Part shown: positions 2,271 to 10,245 of the stretch, piece by piece | Layout of the letters: each line of letters opens with the position of its first letter | Position numbering within the stretch: the first letter of the stretch is position 1 | From: Aliiroseovarius halocynthiae | Lineage (GTDB): Bacteria > Pseudomonadota > Alphaproteobacteria > Rhodobacterales > Rhodobacteraceae | Length of the DNA: 64,000 nucleotides | Direction of reading: 5' to 3' | NCBI RefSeq assembly: GCF_007004645.1 | Contig: NZ_ML660020.1 | Span: forward strand, 186,001 to 250,000 | Translations under genes and position numbers: made by a program | Notes under the pieces: generated by a model | What the model saw: the letters and a program-made list of their open reading frames with translations, nothing else | Database searches by the model: none | What the model was told of the DNA's origin: nothing

Positions 2271-3437
2271 GTGTCTCATCCACTTAGGCTTTTCGCCATC
2301 GCAACAGGAATTCCTGCAGCTCTAATCATCGCCGCCAGCTTTCTTGGCGGCTTTTTCTGTCTAATTTTAATACTTTACATGACAGTCATAGCCGCTGTTG
2401 CAGATCTGGCTCTACGTCGCACCGCCCCAGCGCTGACTGAAAGCAGCGTTGCCAAGGACGCCGATCGGCTGTCCCTCATCATTGCCGCGTCGCACACGAT
2501 CACGCTTGTCCTTGTAATTGTCGCATTTTCCGGCGTCACAGGCCTGTCGGGGTGGGAACGTCTGGGCCTGTTCCTAGGGGCCGGGATGTACTTCGGGAAG
2601 GTCTCAAATGCCAATGCGCATCTGTTAATCCACCATACCGACAGGCGAATGCGTTGGCTGGGAATCGGAATTTTCACCTCGTTTCTCGCTGGGCACCTCA
2701 ATTCGTCACACCTGAAAGTACATCATCATTTTGTTGCAACTAAGGATGACCCCAACACCGGACAGATCGACGAAAACTTCTATCACTTCCTCCAACGCGC
2801 GTGGGTTGGCGCATTTATTGCTGGATATGAGGTCGAAACACACGAGCTGGAGCGCGCCGGGCGTAGCACACTACGGAACCCGTATATCGTTTACGCAGCA
2901 GGCGGGCTGACTATGGTAATTCTGTCGATGATCCTAGGCGGCTTCTTTGGTTTCGTAGGGTATCTGTTCCTATGTGCCTATGTACAATTTCAGCAGTTAC
3001 AAATTGACTTTGTCCAGCATTACGGCCTGCAGCGCGCCGAGCTGGCGGATGGCACACTCGAGCCAGTTAGCCAACAACACAGCTGGAACTCGTGCCACTG
3101 GTTTACGTCCCATATGATGCTGAATGCACCTCGCGCCTCTGCCCACTATGCCCAACCGACACTTCGGCACCCGGCGCTGCAACCGCCTGAGGCGTCGTCG
3201 GTTCCGATGCTCCCATATTCACTGCCATTCATGACTTTCCTAGCTCTTTTCCCGCCAACATGGGACCGCATCATGGATCGGGCTTTGCTTAAATGGATTG
3301 AAATGAAGCCACAAACACCGTCACCGGAAACCACGAATAACCTGGTGACACCAGCACCAGTTAGGGACGCCGCAACGCCTGAAATAGAAATGTCTGATAT
3401 AGACAAGACGATATCGGACATGATGATGCGCCAGTAA
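2271..3437 (+). CDS. Divergent AlkB-type membrane di-iron hydroxylase/desaturase-like protein
   Basis: This 388-residue membrane protein resembles alkane 1-monooxygenase (AlkB) across its length. Visible matches are HLLIH (117-121), SSHLKVHHH (145-153) followed by VATKDDP, DFVQHYGL (247-253) and QHSWNSCH (269-276). AlkB proteins use membrane-embedded di-iron centres held by His boxes to hydroxylate alkyl chains. The last AlkB box, normally RHSDHH, reads RASAHY at 288-293, so two expected iron ligands are absent. The start is GTG at 2271 with GAGG seven bases upstream. A roughly 50-residue polar tail follows the catalytic region. Codon use looks more AT-rich than in neighbours (many CTA, GTA, TTA), suggesting transfer. 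Substrate and activity are unknown. Confidence 0.72.
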   Translation: MSHPLRLFAIATGIPAALIIAASFLGGFFCLILILYMTVIAAVADLALRRTAPALTESSVAKDADRLSLIIAASHTITLVLVIVAFSGVTGLSGWERLGLFLGAGMYFGKVSNANAHLLIHHTDRRMRWLGIGIFTSFLAGHLNSSHLKVHHHFVATKDDPNTGQIDENFYHFLQRAWVGAFIAGYEVETHELERAGRSTLRNPYIVYAAGGLTMVILSMILGGFFGFVGYLFLCAYVQFQQLQIDFVQHYGLQRAELADGTLEPVSQQHSWNSCHWFTSHMMLNAPRASAHYAQPTLRHPALQPPEASSVPMLPYSLPFMTFLALFPPTWDRIMDRALLKWIEMKPQTPSPETTNNLVTPAPVRDAATPEIEMSDIDKTISDMMMRQ

Positions 3438-3445
3438 TTACCCGC

Positions 3446-3477
3446 CAAGGGGGAGCCTTGAATAGCATTCCCCCTTG
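3446..3477 (+). terminator. Hairpin behind the AlkB-like gene, possible terminator
   Basis: CAAGGGGGA (3446-3454) is the exact reverse complement of TCCCCCTTG (3469-3477), with a 14-base loop, nine bases after the stop codon. No long T-run follows, so termination is only probable. Confidence 0.4.
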
Positions 3478-3609
3478 TTAATCAGCAATCCGGGCTTATT
3501 CTTCCAACTGACATAAAAGATGGAACATTGTGTTCTAATAGGCTGCTAGGCAAGTCAAAGGCACAGCGCTTTGGACACCACAGACAGCGAATTTTCAGGG
3601 GGCCTGAAC

Positions 3610-3693
3610 GTGTCAGAAAACGGATTGCAGAAAACTGCGTTCTTCATGCTGGTTGCGCTGATCCTCTATGTGTCGATCATGGGGGGCGCGTAA
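3610..3693 (+). CDS. 27-residue single-pass membrane peptide, first gene of the XpaC/TelA operon
   Basis: A short frame starts at GTG 3610, preceded by AGGGGG at good spacing, and ends with TAA at 3691-3693 that overlaps the xpaC start as TAATG. The product has a short polar N-terminus (MSENGLQKT) followed by one hydrophobic helix and a GGA end. The ribosome-binding site and the one-base overlap with the next gene make it more than a chance frame. I do not recognise a named family. It may be a small accessory subunit or a translational coupler for xpaC. Confidence 0.5.
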   Translation: MSENGLQKTAFFMLVALILYVSIMGGA

Positions 3694-4577
3694 TGGCACA
3701 GCGATTTGGGGGCGAATTCAGCCCCGGCGGACAGCCAAAGAAAGCCCCACCCGCGCGTGGCCCCTTTGATGGGCAAGAACCCGCGCGCAGCGCTGGGCGG
3801 GTGAACTTCCTGTTTCTGGCGCCCCTGCCCCTTGCCATCCGTGCGTTTTTTCAGCCACCGGCTGAAATGGCTCTGACGCTTGTTGCGTTCGGCCTTTTGA
3901 TCGCTTCGGCTTGGTTGACCCGCGACGGAGTCATTGCGCATCAAGCCTATGACGCGCGTAAGATCGCCCGCCGCCCGGCCATTCCCCGCAAGCTTTTCGG
4001 GGCTGCCCTGATGGGGGCGGGTTTGGCTCTGGTCGGGTTTGCCGGGGGCTCGGTTCTGAATGCCGTGATCTTTGGCGCGCTTGGCACCGGTCTGCACCTG
4101 GCTGCCTTTGGTCCCGACCCCATGCGCAACAAGGGTGCCGAGGGCGTTGACGAGTTTCAGACAGACCGTGTCGCCCGCGCCGTGGGCGAAGCAGAAAAGC
4201 ACTTGGACGCTATGCGTGACGCCGTGTCCCGCATTCGCGATCGCCGGGTCGAGGCGCGGCTGAACCAGTTCATCGCCACCGCCCGCGACATGTTCCGCAC
4301 CGTGGAAGACGACCCGCGTGACCTGACATCGGCCCGCAAGTATTTGGGTGTCTATCTGCTGGGTGCACGTGATGCGACGACCAAGTTCGTCGATATCCAC
4401 CTGCGCGACCCGCATGGCGGCGCTCTGACAGACTATGAAACCCTACTGGATGATCTCGAGGCGAATTTCGCCGCGAAAACCAAGCAATTCCTGAACGACG
4501 ACCGCAGCGACCTTGATGTCGAAATCGAGGTGCTACGCGAAAGACTGGCACGCGAAGGCGTGCGCACCGAAGAATAA
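3693..4577 (+). CDS. xpaC: XpaC-like protein (5-bromo-4-chloroindolyl phosphate hydrolysis family)
   Basis: The 294-residue product has a Pro-rich N-terminus, two pairs of hydrophobic segments (about residues 30-75 and 95-130), and a helical cytoplasmic domain of about 150 residues. That domain contains YLGVYLLGARDATTKFVDI and ends in a charged coiled region. This layout is that of the XpaC family (halogen-hydrolysis domain), whose biochemical role is not known. The start is ATG 3693, directly behind GGGGGG and overlapping the stop of the 27-codon gene. It lies 17 bp ahead of telA; the same xpaC-telA pairing is known in Bacillus (xpaC-yaaN), which supports the call. The family is well supported; the function is open. 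Confidence 0.8.
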   Translation: MAQRFGGEFSPGGQPKKAPPARGPFDGQEPARSAGRVNFLFLAPLPLAIRAFFQPPAEMALTLVAFGLLIASAWLTRDGVIAHQAYDARKIARRPAIPRKLFGAALMGAGLALVGFAGGSVLNAVIFGALGTGLHLAAFGPDPMRNKGAEGVDEFQTDRVARAVGEAEKHLDAMRDAVSRIRDRRVEARLNQFIATARDMFRTVEDDPRDLTSARKYLGVYLLGARDATTKFVDIHLRDPHGGALTDYETLLDDLEANFAAKTKQFLNDDRSDLDVEIEVLRERLAREGVRTEE

Positions 4578-4594
4578 GTGACGAGGACAATTTC

Positions 4595-5788
4595 ATGACC
4601 CAAACCACCCGCGAAAAAGCACAGGCCGTGCTGGCCGAAATCGAAGAAGCCACTGCCGTGGTCTTGCCCGAACCGTCGACTGCCCTGGTTCCGCTGACTG
4701 AAGCAGACAAGCCCACCAGCGCTGAAATTCAAAAGCGCATGGACGAGATTGACATGGCCAACAGCCAGTCGATCATCGAATTCGGCTCGGCCGCGCAGTC
4801 CGAGTTGCAGGTCATCAGCCAAGACATGCTGCAAGGTGTGCGCAACAAGGATGCGGGCCCGGCGGGCGACAGCCTGCGCAACATCGTCACCACCATCCGT
4901 GGGTTCTCGATCAGCGAGTTGGACATGCGCCGCAAGCGCAGCTGGTGGGAGAAACTACTGGGTCGCATGGCGCCAGCAGCCAAGTTCATGGCACGCTATG
5001 AAACTGTGCAGGGTCAGATTGACAAGATCACCGACAACCTGCTGAACCACGAGCATGTCCTGCTGAAAGACATCAAGTCCTTGGACAAACTCTACGAAAA
5101 AACACTCGATTTCTACGATGAGCTGGCGCTGTATATCGCGGCGGGCGAAGCCAAACTGGCCGAGCTGGACGACACCATCATCCCTGCCAAAGTGGCAGAG
5201 GTTGAAGCCGCCCCTGAAGATCAGGGCGTTGTCAAAGCGCAAGAACTGCGCGACCTGCGTGCCGCGCGTGACGATTTGGAACGCCGCGTACACGACTTGA
5301 AACTGACCCGTCAGGTAACAATGCAGTCGCTGCCCTCGATCCGTTTGGTACAGGAAAACGACAAGTCCCTGGTAACCAAGATCAACTCGACACTGGTGAA
5401 CACCGTACCGCTGTGGGAAACTCAGCTGGCGCAAGCCGTCACCATCCAGCGTTCGGCCGAGGCCGCGGCTGCGGTGAAAGACGCAACCGACCTGACCAAC
5501 GAACTGTTGACCGCCAACGCCGAAAACCTGCAAGAGGCCAACCGCATGGTCCGTCAGGAAATGGAGCGCGGCGTCTTCGACATCGAAGCCGTCAAGTCGG
5601 CCAACGCCACCCTGATCGCCACGATCGAGGAAAGCCTTGCCATCGCGGACGAAGGAAAGGCCAAACGTGCCGAAGCCGAAGAAGAGCTGGTGAAGATGGA
5701 GGCCGAGCTGAAAAACACGCTGGCCGCCGCCAGCGCACGCGGCACCGCATCTGGCCACAATCTGGCCGAAAGCGTGTCGGGCAGCTAA
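4595..5788 (+). CDS. telA: TelA-like toxic anion resistance protein
   Basis: This 397-residue soluble, mostly helical and highly charged protein matches the TelA (YaaN/KlaA) family across its length. Recognisable stretches include LGRMAPAAKFMARYE in the first third and QTQ-like heptads such as SLPSIRLVQENDKSLVTKI in the middle, followed by a long coiled C-terminal half. TelA proteins are linked to tellurite resistance and cell-envelope stress; the mechanism is unsettled. It is second of the core genes in an operon with XpaC upstream and a DUF2927 lipoprotein 25 bp downstream. No substrate specificity can be read from the sequence. Confidence 0.88.
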   Translation: MTQTTREKAQAVLAEIEEATAVVLPEPSTALVPLTEADKPTSAEIQKRMDEIDMANSQSIIEFGSAAQSELQVISQDMLQGVRNKDAGPAGDSLRNIVTTIRGFSISELDMRRKRSWWEKLLGRMAPAAKFMARYETVQGQIDKITDNLLNHEHVLLKDIKSLDKLYEKTLDFYDELALYIAAGEAKLAELDDTIIPAKVAEVEAAPEDQGVVKAQELRDLRAARDDLERRVHDLKLTRQVTMQSLPSIRLVQENDKSLVTKINSTLVNTVPLWETQLAQAVTIQRSAEAAAAVKDATDLTNELLTANAENLQEANRMVRQEMERGVFDIEAVKSANATLIATIEESLAIADEGKAKRAEAEEELVKMEAELKNTLAAASARGTASGHNLAESVSGS

Positions 5789-5813
5789 GGCCGGCACACC
5801 CCAGAAAGGCAAC

Positions 5814-6791
5814 GTGGTGAGCAGATCCGCATTCCAGAACCTTGTAAGGGCCGTCGTTGCATCGACGGCCCTGACTGCTGTGGCGGCCTGCACTCTGCAA
5901 CAGACTCCGCCTACGCCTGCGCCTCCTCCTGCGCCTGAAAAACCCATTCCGCAATTGGTGATCGACACTCCAAAAGACAGCAGCGCCTATCTGCGAAACT
6001 ATTACGCAAGAATTCAGGCCACCCGTCTGGTTCATGATCAATTGCGCGGCGATGGGGGGGGACCGGATACGCCCTTCACAGAAGCGATGTTGGCGCGCAA
6101 CTTTGAACGCATTGCCTTCAACAGCGAATACAGCAAAGTCGAAGAGCGCCGGATCACCAAGGAACATCCGGTGAAACTGACCCGCTGGTCCAAGCCGGTA
6201 CGCTTCGCACTTAGCTTCGGGGACGGCGTATCCGAAGAACAACGAGGCGTCGACCGACAGGTTTTTACGCCCTATATCGCTCGTTTATCGCGATTGACGA
6301 ACCACCCCATCAGTGCGGTGTCCGAAACCGTTCCGCTGGGGGTGAATTTCACTGTCTTCATCCTGACCGAGGATGACCGCCGCGCCATCGCACCCGCGTT
6401 GCGCCGCACAATGCCAGATATCAGCGACGCGGACCTGCATGACGTCATTAACATGCGCCGCGACACTCAATGCGCCGTGTTTGCACGCGATCGCGGCAAC
6501 GACAACCGCATTGACCGCGCCGTGGCCGTGATCCGGGCCGAGCTGCCAACCCTGATGCGCGCGGCTTGCCTGCACGAAGAGTTGGCGCAAGGACTGGGCC
6601 TGCCCAATGACAGCCCGTCCGCCCGCCCCTCGATCTTCAACGATTCCGACGAATTCGGGCTTTTGACAAACCATGACGAGCTCTTGCTTCAGATGCTCTA
6701 TGACCCGCGCCTTCAGCCCGGGATGGGCGCAGACGAAGCCCGCCCGATCTTTACCAAAATTGCAGCCGAACTTATGAGCGGCTCTGTGTGA
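5814..6791 (+). CDS. DUF2927 family lipoprotein
   Basis: The 325-residue protein has a lipoprotein signal peptide with the lipobox TAVAAC (Cys26), then a Pro-rich linker and a DUF2927 domain from about residue 50. The signature part reads HEELAQGLGLPND followed by SIFND and LLTNHDELLLQMLYDPRL near the C-terminus. The first of these looks like a metzincin HExxHxxGLxxD site in which the second His is Gln. Translation starts at GTG 5814 or 5817 behind AGAAAGG. It is expected in the periplasm, tethered to a membrane. Its position between TelA and the SPFH gene suggests a role in the same envelope-stress pathway. No enzymatic activity has been established for this family to my knowledge. Confidence 0.8.
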   Translation: MVSRSAFQNLVRAVVASTALTAVAACTLQQTPPTPAPPPAPEKPIPQLVIDTPKDSSAYLRNYYARIQATRLVHDQLRGDGGGPDTPFTEAMLARNFERIAFNSEYSKVEERRITKEHPVKLTRWSKPVRFALSFGDGVSEEQRGVDRQVFTPYIARLSRLTNHPISAVSETVPLGVNFTVFILTEDDRRAIAPALRRTMPDISDADLHDVINMRRDTQCAVFARDRGNDNRIDRAVAVIRAELPTLMRAACLHEELAQGLGLPNDSPSARPSIFNDSDEFGLLTNHDELLLQMLYDPRLQPGMGADEARPIFTKIAAELMSGSV

Positions 6792-6820
6792 CCCCATTTG
6801 CCCCCTAGGAGGATTTGACC

Positions 6821-7930
6821 ATGGGTATTCTTGATTTTCTGACCGGTGAATTCATCGACGTCATTCATTGGGTGGATGACAGCCGTGACACGATGGTCTG
6901 GCGGTTCGAACGCGAAGACCACGAGATCAAATATGGCGCGAAGCTGACTGTGCGCGAAGGTCAGGCGGCTGTGTTCGTGCATGAAGGTCAGCTGGCGGAC
7001 GTCTTCACGCCGGGCCTGTACATGTTGGAAACCAACAACATGCCGATCCTGACGACGATCAATCACTGGGACCACGGCTTCAAATCGCCCTTCAAATCCG
7101 AGATCTATTACGTCAACACGACCCGCTTCAATGATCTGAAATGGGGCACCAAAAACCCGATCATGCTGCGCGATCCCGAATTCGGCCCGACCCGTATCCG
7201 CGCATTTGGTTCGTATTCGGTGCGCGTCTCTGATCCGGCACGTTTCTTGGTTGAAATCGTCGGCACCGATGGCGAATTCACGATGGACGAGATCAGCTTC
7301 CAGATCCGCAACATCATCGTGCAGGCGTTCAGCCGCGTGATCGCAGGCGCTGGCATTCCCGTTCTGGACATGGCCGCCAATACCGCCGATCTGGGCAAGA
7401 TTGTCGCAGCCGAGATCACGGGCATTGTCGCTGAATACGGCTTGTCGATCCCCGAGTTTTATATCGAGAACATCTCGTTGCCGCCGGCTGTGGAAGAGGT
7501 CTTGGACAAACGCACCTCGATGGGCATCGCAGGCAATCTGGACAACTACATGAAGTTCAACGCAGCCGAAGCGATGGGTGCCGAGAACTCGGCCATGGCG
7601 TCGTCGATGGGTGCTGGCATGGGGGCAGCCATGGGTATGGGGATGGCAGGTCAGATGCAGTCTGGCCCGTGGGGCGCTGCCCTTGCCGCCCCGCGCGCAC
7701 AAACGCCACCGCCTCCCCCACCCGTTGAACATGTCTGGCATGTCGCCGAAAACGGCGAAACCAAAGGACCATTCTCAAAGGCCGCGATTGGCCGCATGGC
7801 CGCTGCAGGCAGCCTGACCCGCGACAGCCACGTTTGGACACCGGGCCAAGACGGCTGGATGCGGGCCGAGGATGTGGCCGAGCTGGCGCAGCTCTTCACC
7901 ATTCTGCCCCCGCCCCCGCCGGGTGCGTGA
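6821..7930 (+). CDS. SPFH-domain protein with C-terminal GYF_2 domain (YdjI-like)
   Basis: This 369-residue protein belongs to the SPFH group often annotated as 'virion core protein', related to Bacillus YdjI. Residues about 1-230 hold the SPFH-like domain. A Gly/Ala/Met-rich stretch of MGAGMG type follows (about 250-280), then a Pro linker and a GYF_2 domain at about 305-365 (GPFSKAAIGRM, VWTPGQDGWM). GYF_2 domains bind partner proteins or proline-rich segments. The ATG at 6821 follows a near-perfect AGGAGGA and is preferred over a TTG two codons earlier. It sits directly ahead of the zinc-ribbon membrane gene, the same partner type as in the Bacillus pspA-ydjGHI operon. A scaffold role at stressed membranes is inferred. 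Confidence 0.82.
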   Translation: MGILDFLTGEFIDVIHWVDDSRDTMVWRFEREDHEIKYGAKLTVREGQAAVFVHEGQLADVFTPGLYMLETNNMPILTTINHWDHGFKSPFKSEIYYVNTTRFNDLKWGTKNPIMLRDPEFGPTRIRAFGSYSVRVSDPARFLVEIVGTDGEFTMDEISFQIRNIIVQAFSRVIAGAGIPVLDMAANTADLGKIVAAEITGIVAEYGLSIPEFYIENISLPPAVEEVLDKRTSMGIAGNLDNYMKFNAAEAMGAENSAMASSMGAGMGAAMGMGMAGQMQSGPWGAALAAPRAQTPPPPPPVEHVWHVAENGETKGPFSKAAIGRMAAAGSLTRDSHVWTPGQDGWMRAEDVAELAQLFTILPPPPPGA

Positions 7931-8005
7931 TCTGGTTCAAGAACGAAAAGGGGCGGCCTGTCGGGTCGCCCTGCCCTACGCATATCTCTGACAAGGTTTC
8001 CCCGG

Positions 8006-9121
8006 ATGGCCTTTCCGCGCGAAGACACCCAGACACCGATCGAAGAACACCGCTTTCCCTGCGACCAGTGCGGGGCAGATCTGCGGTTCGACCCTGAACA
8101 CAACCAGCTGACCTGCGACCATTGCGGTTTCAAAGCTCCGATCGAGGATCGCCAGCCCCCGCAGACGGTCATCCGCGAGCTGGATTTGAAACGCGCACTG
8201 TCGGCTGATCTGCCTGATCACGAACTGGAAGAAACCCGCGTGGTGGCCTGCCCCAACTGCGCGGCTCAGTTTGAATTCGACGCGGCCACCCATGCCGCCG
8301 AATGCCCGTTCTGTGCCACGCCCGTGGTGGCGGACACGGGCACGCACCGGCATATCAAACCCAAAGGACTTGCCCCGTTCGAGATCGAAGAACGCGAGGC
8401 CCGCAAGGCCATGACCAATTGGTTGGGACGGCTTTGGTTTGCACCAAATGGGCTTCAGGACTATGCCCGCAAAGGGCGCAAGATGACGGGCATCTATGTG
8501 CCCTACTGGACCTTCGATGCGGACACGAAGACGCGATATGCAGGCCAACGTGGCACCGTACACGAGCGCACCCGCACCGTCACCGTGAACGGAAAACGCG
8601 AACAGCGCACCACGCGGCACGTTCGGTGGACATCCGTATCAGGCCGTGTTGCGCGCTTCTTTGATGATGTTTTGGTGTTGGCATCGAAAGGCCTGCCGAA
8701 GAAATATACAGACGCGCTGGAGCCATGGGATCTGTCGCGCCTTGAACCCTATCGCCCCGAGTTTCTGGCCGGTTTCCGCGCCGAGGGCTATACCGTCGAG
8801 CTGGATGAGGGCTTTACCGAGGCACGCGATTATATGAATCGTATCATCCAGCGGGATGTGAGATTTGATATTGGGGGGGATCGCCAGCGTATCACCTCGA
8901 TGGATACGGATATGTCCGGCCTGACCTTCAAACACATCCTGCTGCCGGTTTGGCTGGCGGCCTATAAATACCGCGGCAAGACCTATCGCTTCGTGGTGAA
9001 CGGGCAAAACGGCCGGGTGCAGGGGGAACGCCCCTATTCGGTCTGGAAAATTACCTTTGCCGTAATTTTGGGACTGATCGTGGCCGGCGTCATCGGCTAT
9101 CTGTCCGCCCAAAACCAATAG
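8006..9121 (+). CDS. Double zinc-ribbon, C-terminally anchored membrane protein (YdjG-like)
   Basis: The 371-residue protein begins with two CxxC...CxxC zinc ribbons: Cys19/22/37/40 and Cys82/85/100/103. A central domain of about 220 residues contains YVPYWTFDADTKTRY and KHILLPVWLAAYKY. One transmembrane helix lies at about 350-366 near the very C-terminus. Database entries for this type are often mislabelled as primosomal protein N'/helicase, but no helicase motif is present. Its partner in Bacillus is YdjG, which works with the SPFH protein YdjI at the membrane. It ends the XpaC-TelA-DUF2927-SPFH operon; the nitroreductase gene follows only nine bases later and may be read through. Confidence 0.78.
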   Translation: MAFPREDTQTPIEEHRFPCDQCGADLRFDPEHNQLTCDHCGFKAPIEDRQPPQTVIRELDLKRALSADLPDHELEETRVVACPNCAAQFEFDAATHAAECPFCATPVVADTGTHRHIKPKGLAPFEIEEREARKAMTNWLGRLWFAPNGLQDYARKGRKMTGIYVPYWTFDADTKTRYAGQRGTVHERTRTVTVNGKREQRTTRHVRWTSVSGRVARFFDDVLVLASKGLPKKYTDALEPWDLSRLEPYRPEFLAGFRAEGYTVELDEGFTEARDYMNRIIQRDVRFDIGGDRQRITSMDTDMSGLTFKHILLPVWLAAYKYRGKTYRFVVNGQNGRVQGERPYSVWKITFAVILGLIVAGVIGYLSAQNQ

Positions 9122-9130
9122 AGAGCATTC

Positions 9131-9811
9131 ATGGATCCCGATCAATTTGACGCACTGATGCGCGCGCGCCATTCATGCCGCGCGTTTCACCCGGATCCAA
9201 TTCCGTCGCCGGTGATTGAACAGATCCTGTGGTCAGCGCAAAAGGTACCAAGCTGGTGCAATGCGCAACCGTGGCAGGTCGACGTGACCACCGCGCCCGA
9301 GACTGACCGCCTGCGCGAAGCCTTCTATGCCCATGCGATGGACACCGCGCAGACACCAGATGTCGACTGGCCCAGCGCCTATACCGGACTGCATCAACGC
9401 CGCAGCAAGGCTTGTGGCTTACAACTTTATAGAAGCGTCGGTGTGACACCCGGGGATCGTGCGGCATCAGGTCAGCAGATGCTTGAGAACTTCCGCTTTT
9501 TCGGTGCGCCCCATATCGCCCTGATCACCGCGCCTGTCGAACTTGGCCCCTATGCCTATCTGGATTGCGGAGGTTTCGTGACCGGGTTCTGTCTGGCCGC
9601 AACCGCACAGGGCGTCGCGACGATTCCGCAAGCCGCCGTGGCCGCTTTCGCGCCCTTTCTGCGCGACTGGTTTGACCTGCCCGAAGATCGCGTGATCCTG
9701 TGCGGTATTGCGTTTGGGCGCAGTGACGACGACCACCCTGCCAACAGCTTCCGCACCAAACGGGCGGAGTTGGGTGAATGGGTCCATTGGCATGGAAAGG
9801 ACACCGAATGA
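9131..9811 (+). CDS. Nitroreductase family protein
   Basis: The 226-residue product is an FMN-dependent NAD(P)H oxidoreductase of the nitroreductase fold. The N-terminal FMN phosphate-binding signature is [14 protein letters not shown] (about 11-24), followed by a NAQPWQ motif (45-50). A C-terminal stretch with [17 protein letters not shown] resembles the usual 'vigyP.e' end of the fold. It is soluble and cytoplasmic; the natural substrate cannot be told. The stop codon overlaps the start of dtd (ATGA), so the two are translationally coupled. Confidence 0.85.
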
Positions 9812-10245
9812 GAGCTTTGATACAGCGCGCAAGCGAGGCTTCCGTCCGCGTTGACGGCGAGATCGTTGGAGAGATCGGCCCCGGCCTTCTGGTTCTGGTC
9901 TGCGCGATGGAAGGCGACACCGAGGCGAATGCAGACACGCTGGCGGCCAAGATTTCCAAGCTGCGGATTTTCAAGGATGACGCAGACAAGATGAACCGGT
10001 CTTTGCTGGACACGGGCGGCGCGGCTTTGGTGGTCAGCCAGTTCACGTTGGCGGCAGATACGTCACGCGGGAACCGTCCGGGGTTTTCAACCGCAGCCCG
10101 CCCGGATGAAGGCGAACGGCTGTATGCGTATTTCTCCGATCAACTGCGCGGGCATGGAATCGAGGTCGCACAAGGTCGTTTTGGTGCCGACATGAAGGTC
10201 TCTTTGGTGAACGACGGACCTGTCACGATTTGGATGGAATTTTAG
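9808..10245 (+). CDS. dtd: D-aminoacyl-tRNA deacylase
   Basis: The 145-residue enzyme removes D-amino acids (and glycine from tRNA-Ala) wrongly attached to tRNA. It starts with the typical MRALIQRAS. It carries the active-site motif [15 protein letters not shown] in the middle and an NDGPVT motif near the C-terminus, where the family usually has N(S/D)GPVT with the cross-subunit cis Gly-Pro. The length equals the family norm. The start at 9808 gives a four-base ATGA overlap with the nitroreductase gene and is preferred over an ATG ten codons earlier. Confidence 0.95.

Follow-up and report, generated by a model that had tools for sequence, protein, structure and literature searches.

The 64,000-nucleotide window analyzed here (Aliiroseovarius halocynthiae contig NZ_ML660020.1, positions 186,001 to 250,000) contains a series of six plus-strand genes, at window positions 3610–9121, that encode a membrane peptide, XpaC, TelA, a DUF2927 lipoprotein, an SPFH-GYF_2 protein and a zinc-ribbon membrane protein (Table 1). 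Our analyses indicate that this cluster is real and deeply conserved, and we infer from them a variant of the SPFH membrane-scaffold kind in which modules that are mostly apart elsewhere have been joined. By analogy with related systems, its probable role is protection of the cell membrane during stress. An earlier note on this DNA, made from the sequence alone, had listed the same six genes, and all of them lie at the positions and on the strand that it gave. The family names it used were upheld by Pfam for XpaC, TelA, DUF2927, SPFH and GYF_2, and the zinc ribbon is assigned from four CxxC pairs together with Pfam zinc-ribbon matches that are all under the Pfam cut-offs.

The conservation of the cluster was assessed in an order-level sample of 121 genomes, all from one mostly marine bacterial family and representing 58 genera. 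DUF2927 was present in 120 of these genomes, TelA in 119 and the Band_7_1 SPFH in 118 (117 over the cut-off). Gene order was followed in 67 regions from 66 of the genomes, with at least one region per genus and odd cases chosen deliberately, using profiles built from the core proteins. All five large genes were found in one order and on one strand in 51/67 regions, one of which (L096) has an 11-kb gap; the other 16 comprise four cut by contig ends (L047, L053, L080, and L092), two places of a single genome (L042 and L043) and ten real changes. A second sample consisted of 80 named loci picked by SPFH similarity, and in 68 of the 69 with enough flank the other four core genes were near the SPFH gene and on its strand, as judged by strand and distance and not by order. 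The nearest named relatives are from Aliiroseovarius species, a genus of the Rhodobacterales, with 96% SPFH identity (a comparison from which the genome of the window itself may be missing). The arrangement is far beyond chance, and the co-occurrence in related genomes that the earlier note had proposed to check was found in both samples, the first covering one family. Many genera have unrelated genes between the core genes, including those for cytochrome b561 (L034:6297-6896 and L089:2972-3538), a lactate permease (L050:3731-5209) and a DUF6338 protein (L056:5064-5687).

The zinc-ribbon gene and xpaC have also been retained where they moved. In genera g8 and g18 the zinc-ribbon gene is away from the SPFH gene, and it was found elsewhere in 5/5 genomes tested. 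Similarly, xpaC and the TelA gene have become separated in genus g7, yet xpaC was kept elsewhere in 6/6 genomes (the genome-wide searches for XpaC and the zinc-ribbon protein covered nine and ten chosen genomes, respectively). The losses, in turn, are largely shared: genomes G011, G085, and G106 have no strong SPFH, XpaC or zinc-ribbon matches, TelA is also gone from G011 and G106, and the TelA match of G085 is weak and partial. If kinship is ignored, the two genomes without TelA would both fall among the four without SPFH with a probability of 6/7260, or ~0.0008. Taken together, the near-universal co-occurrence, the mostly shared losses and the retention of relocated genes point to a single functional unit, in partial support of the interpretation in the earlier note.

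The first gene of the cluster, for a membrane peptide of 27 residues, is closely tied to xpaC. A hydrophobic open reading frame (ORF) of 18–60 codons that ends within 10 bases of the xpaC start was detected at 60/61 xpaC starts, and at 62/62 with looser settings. The same ORF test at control starts gave 0/65 for TelA, 0/64 for DUF2927, 0/61 for SPFH and 5/54 for the zinc ribbon. The peptide sequences are plainly alike across loci, and among 12 close relatives the ratio of nonsynonymous to synonymous differences (pN/pS) was 0.18 in frame vs. 1.7 and 2.3 in the alternative frames. Furthermore, four of the six relocated xpaC genes were fetched, and the peptide was directly upstream of all four (L226–L228 by script and L225 by inspection of the frames). 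Its placement at 60/61 xpaC starts and its pN/pS mark the peptide as a real coding gene, and it had no match in Pfam or NCBIfam. XpaC itself has a conserved N-terminal start, MAxRFGGxxSP, hydrophobic segments at residues 55–81 and 100–139 by hydropathy, and then a conserved portion that looks cytosolic.

The DUF2927 lipoprotein is predicted to have a metzincin-like fold. An AlphaFold2 (AF2) model from 43 sequences had a predicted local distance difference test score (pLDDT) of 89.6 and a predicted template modeling score (pTM) of 0.80, and catalytic domains of matrix metalloproteinases (MMPs) made up most of its best Foldseek matches (best E 5.9e-3, prob 0.99). Aligned with MMP-7 by VIA-align, the model gave a Z of 11.6 with a root-mean-square deviation of 2.7 over 148 residues. 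The best 50 VIA matches were all matrixin entries with Z of 10.6 or more, the stated typical best Z being 7 to 8. Metzincins have the zinc motif HExxHxxGxxH, and a methionine in the Met-turn is a further feature of these enzymes. In the HHalign register, E255-E256-x-x-Q259-x-x-G262-x-x-N265 of DUF2927 falls on HExxHxxGxxH, so that the protein reads EExxQxxGxxND (EELAQGLGLPND in the window) where metzincins have their zinc site, and LTxxDELLLxMLY falls on the last matrixin helix. Residues E255, E256, Q259, D266, C220, and C252 are invariant in 64/64 sequences, G262 is present in 63/64 and N265 in 62/64, and the pattern is kept in the corresponding stretch of three members from outside the family (CVVEEITQTLGLPND, CIVEEITQLLGLPND, and CAYEELLQSLGPIND). 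Phe275, also found in 64/64 sequences, presumably lies near the place of the Met-turn methionine.

Because the zinc motif is absent at the aligned place, we do not class DUF2927 as a metzincin peptidase, and a Pfam scan of 43 DUF2927 sequences with E up to 10 returned no peptidase family. The altered motif suggests that DUF2927 is probably not a canonical zinc protease. It is probably a conserved pseudo-metzincin whose role is in binding, and it may have an unusual metal site. A bridge between Cys220 and Cys252 is likely. The lipobox pattern occurs in 56/64 DUF2927 relatives, and the residue after the lipobox Cys is mixed (13 Asp of 56), from which we draw no conclusion on membrane sorting. 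Searches by sequence found no credible solved relatives for either DUF2927 or TelA, and DUF2927 was in none of the open-access papers searched (subscription papers and preprints lay outside the search); the fold and altered motif are new here. A second, longer DUF2927 protein of 471 aa is encoded on contig C1 of the window's own genome (L230:5592-7007), with a MoxR-like AAA gene ~1 kb ahead of it and a VWA_CoxE gene immediately behind, and a long second DUF2927 is present in many genomes of the family sample.

Hydropathy indicates that the SPFH-GYF_2 protein has no membrane segment and that the zinc-ribbon protein has one, a C-terminal hydrophobic stretch at residues 343–370. The conserved cysteines of the latter are at residues 19/22, 37/40, 82/85, and 100/103. 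The SPFH protein ends in a PPP tail in 61/61 family sequences. Across the SPFH alignment, GYF_2 and the PPP tail occurred together in 11/11 sequences vs. a PPP tail in 0/10 of the others (three GYF_2 members from outside the family are included, and four of the ten were not Pfam-scanned), and this joint occurrence leads us to suppose that GYF_2 may bind the PPP tail of an adjacent subunit. The only match of the SPFH protein to solved structures by sequence was a GYF match, the gliding protein AgmX (E 0.001). We also considered a proline-rich XpaC N-terminus as the GYF_2 ligand and rejected it: the first 40 residues contain a median of 4 Pro, with a Pro motif in 38/62, and the corresponding medians for TelA and the zinc-ribbon protein are 3.5 and 4.

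TelA scored 361 bits against PF05816, for which the curated cut-off is 30, and has no membrane segment. It is predicted to be all-helical, with two very long helices (AF2, pLDDT 74, pTM 0.63). The best VIA Z values for this model were 14.0 for an alpha-pore toxin subunit, 12.8 for ClyA and ~11 for BAR domains, all of which we regard as background for helical models. PspA was not among the best 50 VIA matches to the TelA model, which excludes nothing.

Outside the family, the modules are encountered mostly on their own. The phylum sample comprised 299 genomes, 15 of them of this family, and contained TelA in 50/299, DUF2927 in 45/299 and Band_7_1 in 102/299 (60 over the cut-off). We then considered the neighborhoods of 20 TelA places, 17 of 21 strong SPFH places and 3 of 31 DUF2927 places from outside the family. 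A zinc-ribbon match was strong (>300 bits) in 8 and weak (13–31 bits) in 7 of the 17 SPFH places, one was contig-cut and one had none; the three weak neighbors scanned carry DUF4178 plus sub-threshold zinc ribbons. TelA, XpaC, and DUF2927 were in none of these 17 neighborhoods. Of the 20 TelA places, TelA was recognized by the family profile in 16 and an XpaC-like protein was present in 7 (two Pfam-confirmed). These frequencies agree with the statement in the earlier note that the two pairs are known separately. The SPFH C-terminus varies by lineage (GYF_2, HTH_17 or SHOCT), and HTH_17 in place of GYF_2 or SHOCT was seen in L125:7110-8225 and L127:7093-8238. Among the outside TelA places, the XpaC-TelA-SPFH/GYF_2 run is present in L101 alone (3149-8314, from another class, with a genome of 2 Mb), where an unknown gene and then two genes for lytic transglycosylases come next. 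Its SPFH part is weak, with 17.8 bits for Band_7_1 (cut-off 24) and 38.7 bits for GYF_2.

Our favored interpretation, which we hold tentatively and at slightly below an even chance, is that the cluster encodes a single inner-membrane-spanning system for membrane maintenance, which guards the integrity of this membrane under stress. In its favor are the near-universal gene set with its fixed order, the retention of relocated genes, the shared losses (SPFH and the zinc ribbon are also missing jointly from G081), the run in L101, the pairing of GYF_2 with the PPP tail, the fold and motif of DUF2927, the findings on B. subtilis YdjI discussed below, and a Listeria TelA mutant reported to have raised sensitivity to nisin and tellurite (PMC12791056). 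In the scheme that we infer for the complex, its membrane sites and its stress role, as well as for the direction in which any signal would run, a scaffold of SPFH-GYF_2 and its zinc-ribbon partner would lie on the inner face of the inner membrane. The zinc-ribbon protein is the likely anchor of this scaffold, since the SPFH protein itself is without a membrane segment. XpaC and its companion peptide would bring the long helical TelA to the scaffold site. The DUF2927 lipoprotein would act at the periplasmic face of the inner membrane, where it probably binds a partner or ligand without cutting, given that EExxQxxGxxND occupies the place of the zinc site. The scaffold could stabilize or remodel the membrane during envelope stress in the manner of Bacillus subtilis YdjGHI-PspA, and we propose, by that analogy, that TelA takes the position of PspA on a scaffold at the inner membrane. 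A bolder version, which we consider rather unlikely, is a trans-envelope membrane-repair machine. Here the lipidated pseudo-metzincin would sense or hold the damaged envelope and signal via XpaC and the 27-residue peptide to a self-polymerizing lattice of SPFH-GYF/PPP-tail subunits, and TelA on this lattice would be the membrane-remodeling element, as PspA/ESCRT-III is in other bacteria.

Several observations weigh against a membrane-maintenance system of this kind. A PspA/IM30 homolog is encoded in 41/121 genomes, including the window's own, in which the only PF04012 match (G000:C2:115346-116017, L229:5344-6045, 233 aa, 48.5 bits) lies beyond the window, at a distance of ~75 kb from the cluster. 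PspA and the cluster showed no anti-phase, the cluster occurring with or without PspA in the 121 genomes, and the earlier idea that it possibly replaces a Psp-type response is not supported. The accompanying remark that no pspA is present holds for the neighborhood, where PspA is not among the Pfam matches of the cluster, and is incorrect for the genome. TelA as a PspA/ESCRT-III look-alike by fold was unsupported, as Foldseek returned nothing at E ≤0.001 for the pLDDT 74 model. No Foldseek match of DUF2927 passed E 0.001 either, and its HHalign comparison with five bacterial matrixin domains was not significant (E 0.2). The core can also come apart: G081 has lost SPFH and the zinc ribbon together and retained XpaC, TelA, and DUF2927; in G008, G020, and G023, which have both TelA and SPFH, no DUF2927 gene separates the two; and in G011 and G106 a DUF2927 has outlasted the other core genes. 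Finally, most SPFH and TelA places outside the family are without the other module.

These last observations are those expected if the cluster were a conserved gene string and not one machine, with separate membrane-maintenance modules (TelA-XpaC-peptide, SPFH-zinc ribbon, and DUF2927) that, without physical contact, are placed under one promoter because they respond to a common stress. The modules do live apart outside the family, unrelated genes stand between core genes in many genera, and one module was kept after the loss of another in G081 and, for DUF2927, in G011 and G106. However, in G011, G085, and G106 the SPFH-zinc-ribbon part and XpaC are both gone, with TelA absent or a remnant, relocated genes were retained, and XpaC-TelA-SPFH/GYF_2 arose in another class too. 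We regard separate modules as unlikely, though deserving of serious weight. A platform centered on SPFH for quality control or respiratory assembly of membrane redox proteins is quite improbable in our view. The inserted genes vary by genus while the core stays, and the core has no active protease gene, even though cytochrome b561 genes stand between SPFH and the zinc ribbon in two scanned regions (L034 and L089), inserts in further genera look similar by eye, and 43/69 named loci have a nitroreductase gene nearby. One paper reportedly deals with HflK-HflC, an SPFH complex, in connection with aerobic respiration (PMC12005517).

The family name of TelA invites the explanation that this is an operon for resistance to tellurite or toxic anions, which we consider very unlikely. 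The portion of a review cited here names Rhodobacter sphaeroides telA among chromosomal tellurite resistance elements (PMC6955997). According to the cited part of a Listeria study, a TelA mutant was 2-fold more sensitive to tellurite, but the effect on nisin sensitivity was larger, at 4-fold (PMC12791056). The conserved core contains no oxyanion transporter or reductase, and its near-universal presence suggests a general role.

Table 1. Features of the cluster and the two genes that follow it (window coordinates).
Feature	Position	Strand	Details
Single-span membrane peptide, 27 residues, GTG start	3610..3693	+	Stop overlaps xpaC start (TAATG)
XpaC	3693..4577	+	PF10112, E 7e-29
TelA	4595..5788	+	PF05816, E 5e-108
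DUF2927 lipoprotein	5814..6791	+	PF11150, E 3e-60; lipobox VAAC at residues 23-26
Codons of EELAQGLGLPND (DUF2927 residues 255-266), place of metzincin zinc motif	6576..6611	+	Alignment to bacterial matrixins
SPFH (Band_7_1) with C-terminal GYF_2 and PPP tail	6821..7930	+	PF13421, E 9e-100; PF14237, E 3e-20
Zinc-ribbon membrane protein	8006..9121	+	Four CxxC pairs; sub-threshold zinc-ribbon matches
Nitroreductase	9131..9811	+	PF00881, E 4e-26; 9 bases after zinc-ribbon gene
D-aminoacyl-tRNA deacylase	9808..10245	+	PF02580, E 1e-56; overlaps nitroreductase gene

The transcription unit may be longer than six genes, based on the short gap to the nitroreductase gene and the overlap of that gene with the deacylase gene (Table 1). 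The nitroreductase is accessory and outside the core, and the D-aminoacyl-tRNA deacylase is a frequent downstream neighbor, near the cluster in 49/69 named loci. Upstream there is a fatty acid desaturase gene (window 2271-3437), a relative of which is near the cluster in only 10/69 named loci. A motif upstream of the peptide, considered as a conserved promoter, seems, by eye, to be common to some Aliiroseovarius loci and is not in the window. The promoter scan was at chance level (3 found vs. 2.9 expected), and the terminator scan found 12 vs. 8.6 expected. A PADLOC scan of the five large core proteins gave only chance-level matches (E 0.015 and 0.048) and no credible match to anti-phage defense.

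To our knowledge, no function has been settled for TelA, XpaC, or DUF2927, all of which are widespread. The family-wide joined gene set provides a shared, testable context for all three in tractable marine bacteria, the prediction of a metzincin fold without the zinc site provides a structural hypothesis for DUF2927, and the conserved peptide is an added gene without a match in Pfam or NCBIfam. No paper combining TelA, XpaC, and SPFH was found among the open-access papers searched, with the same scope as given above for DUF2927.

Several parts of the cluster have counterparts in known systems. The predicted DUF2927 fold resembles that of matrixins such as MMPs and karilysin, with which an LTxxDxxxLxxLY helix is aligned, but DUF2927 has EExxQxxGxxND for HExxHxxGxxH, and F275 presumably near the place of the Met-turn. 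The XpaC and TelA families adjoin in xpaC-telA (yaaN) of Bacillus and in Listeria lmo1966-lmo1967, as stated in the cited part of PMC12791056; in our cluster, the peptide precedes this pair and DUF2927, SPFH, and the zinc ribbon come after it. SPFH proteins with SHOCT or HTH_17 in other Pseudomonadota share the SPFH domain and, mostly, a zinc-ribbon-like neighbor, but have other C-terminal domains and are without TelA, XpaC, and DUF2927 in the 17 neighborhoods; SHOCT-band 7 proteins were already known (PMC3581485, in the part cited).

The closest comparison is with pspA-ydjGHI of B. subtilis, where a Band_7_1 SPFH protein without a membrane segment (YdjI, of the same Pfam family as the cluster SPFH) is encoded with a zinc-ribbon membrane protein, in a setting of membrane stress (passages of PMC8581546 and PMC9239133). 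The passages cited from PMC8581546 report that YdjI needs YdjG and YdjH to reach the membrane, that it recruits PspA and that its loss rigidifies the membrane, and PMC10936438 points to some PspA loci that include YdjI as connecting ESCRT-III-type proteins with SPFH. We liken the zinc-ribbon protein to YdjG by protein type. Unlike the B. subtilis locus, the cluster has no pspA or ydjH-like gene and adds TelA, XpaC, the peptide, and DUF2927, and its SPFH protein ends in GYF_2 and the PPP tail, whereas YdjI ends in a zinc finger (PMC8581546, same passages). The cluster also suggests that TelA can be a partner of SPFH scaffolds, as PspA is.

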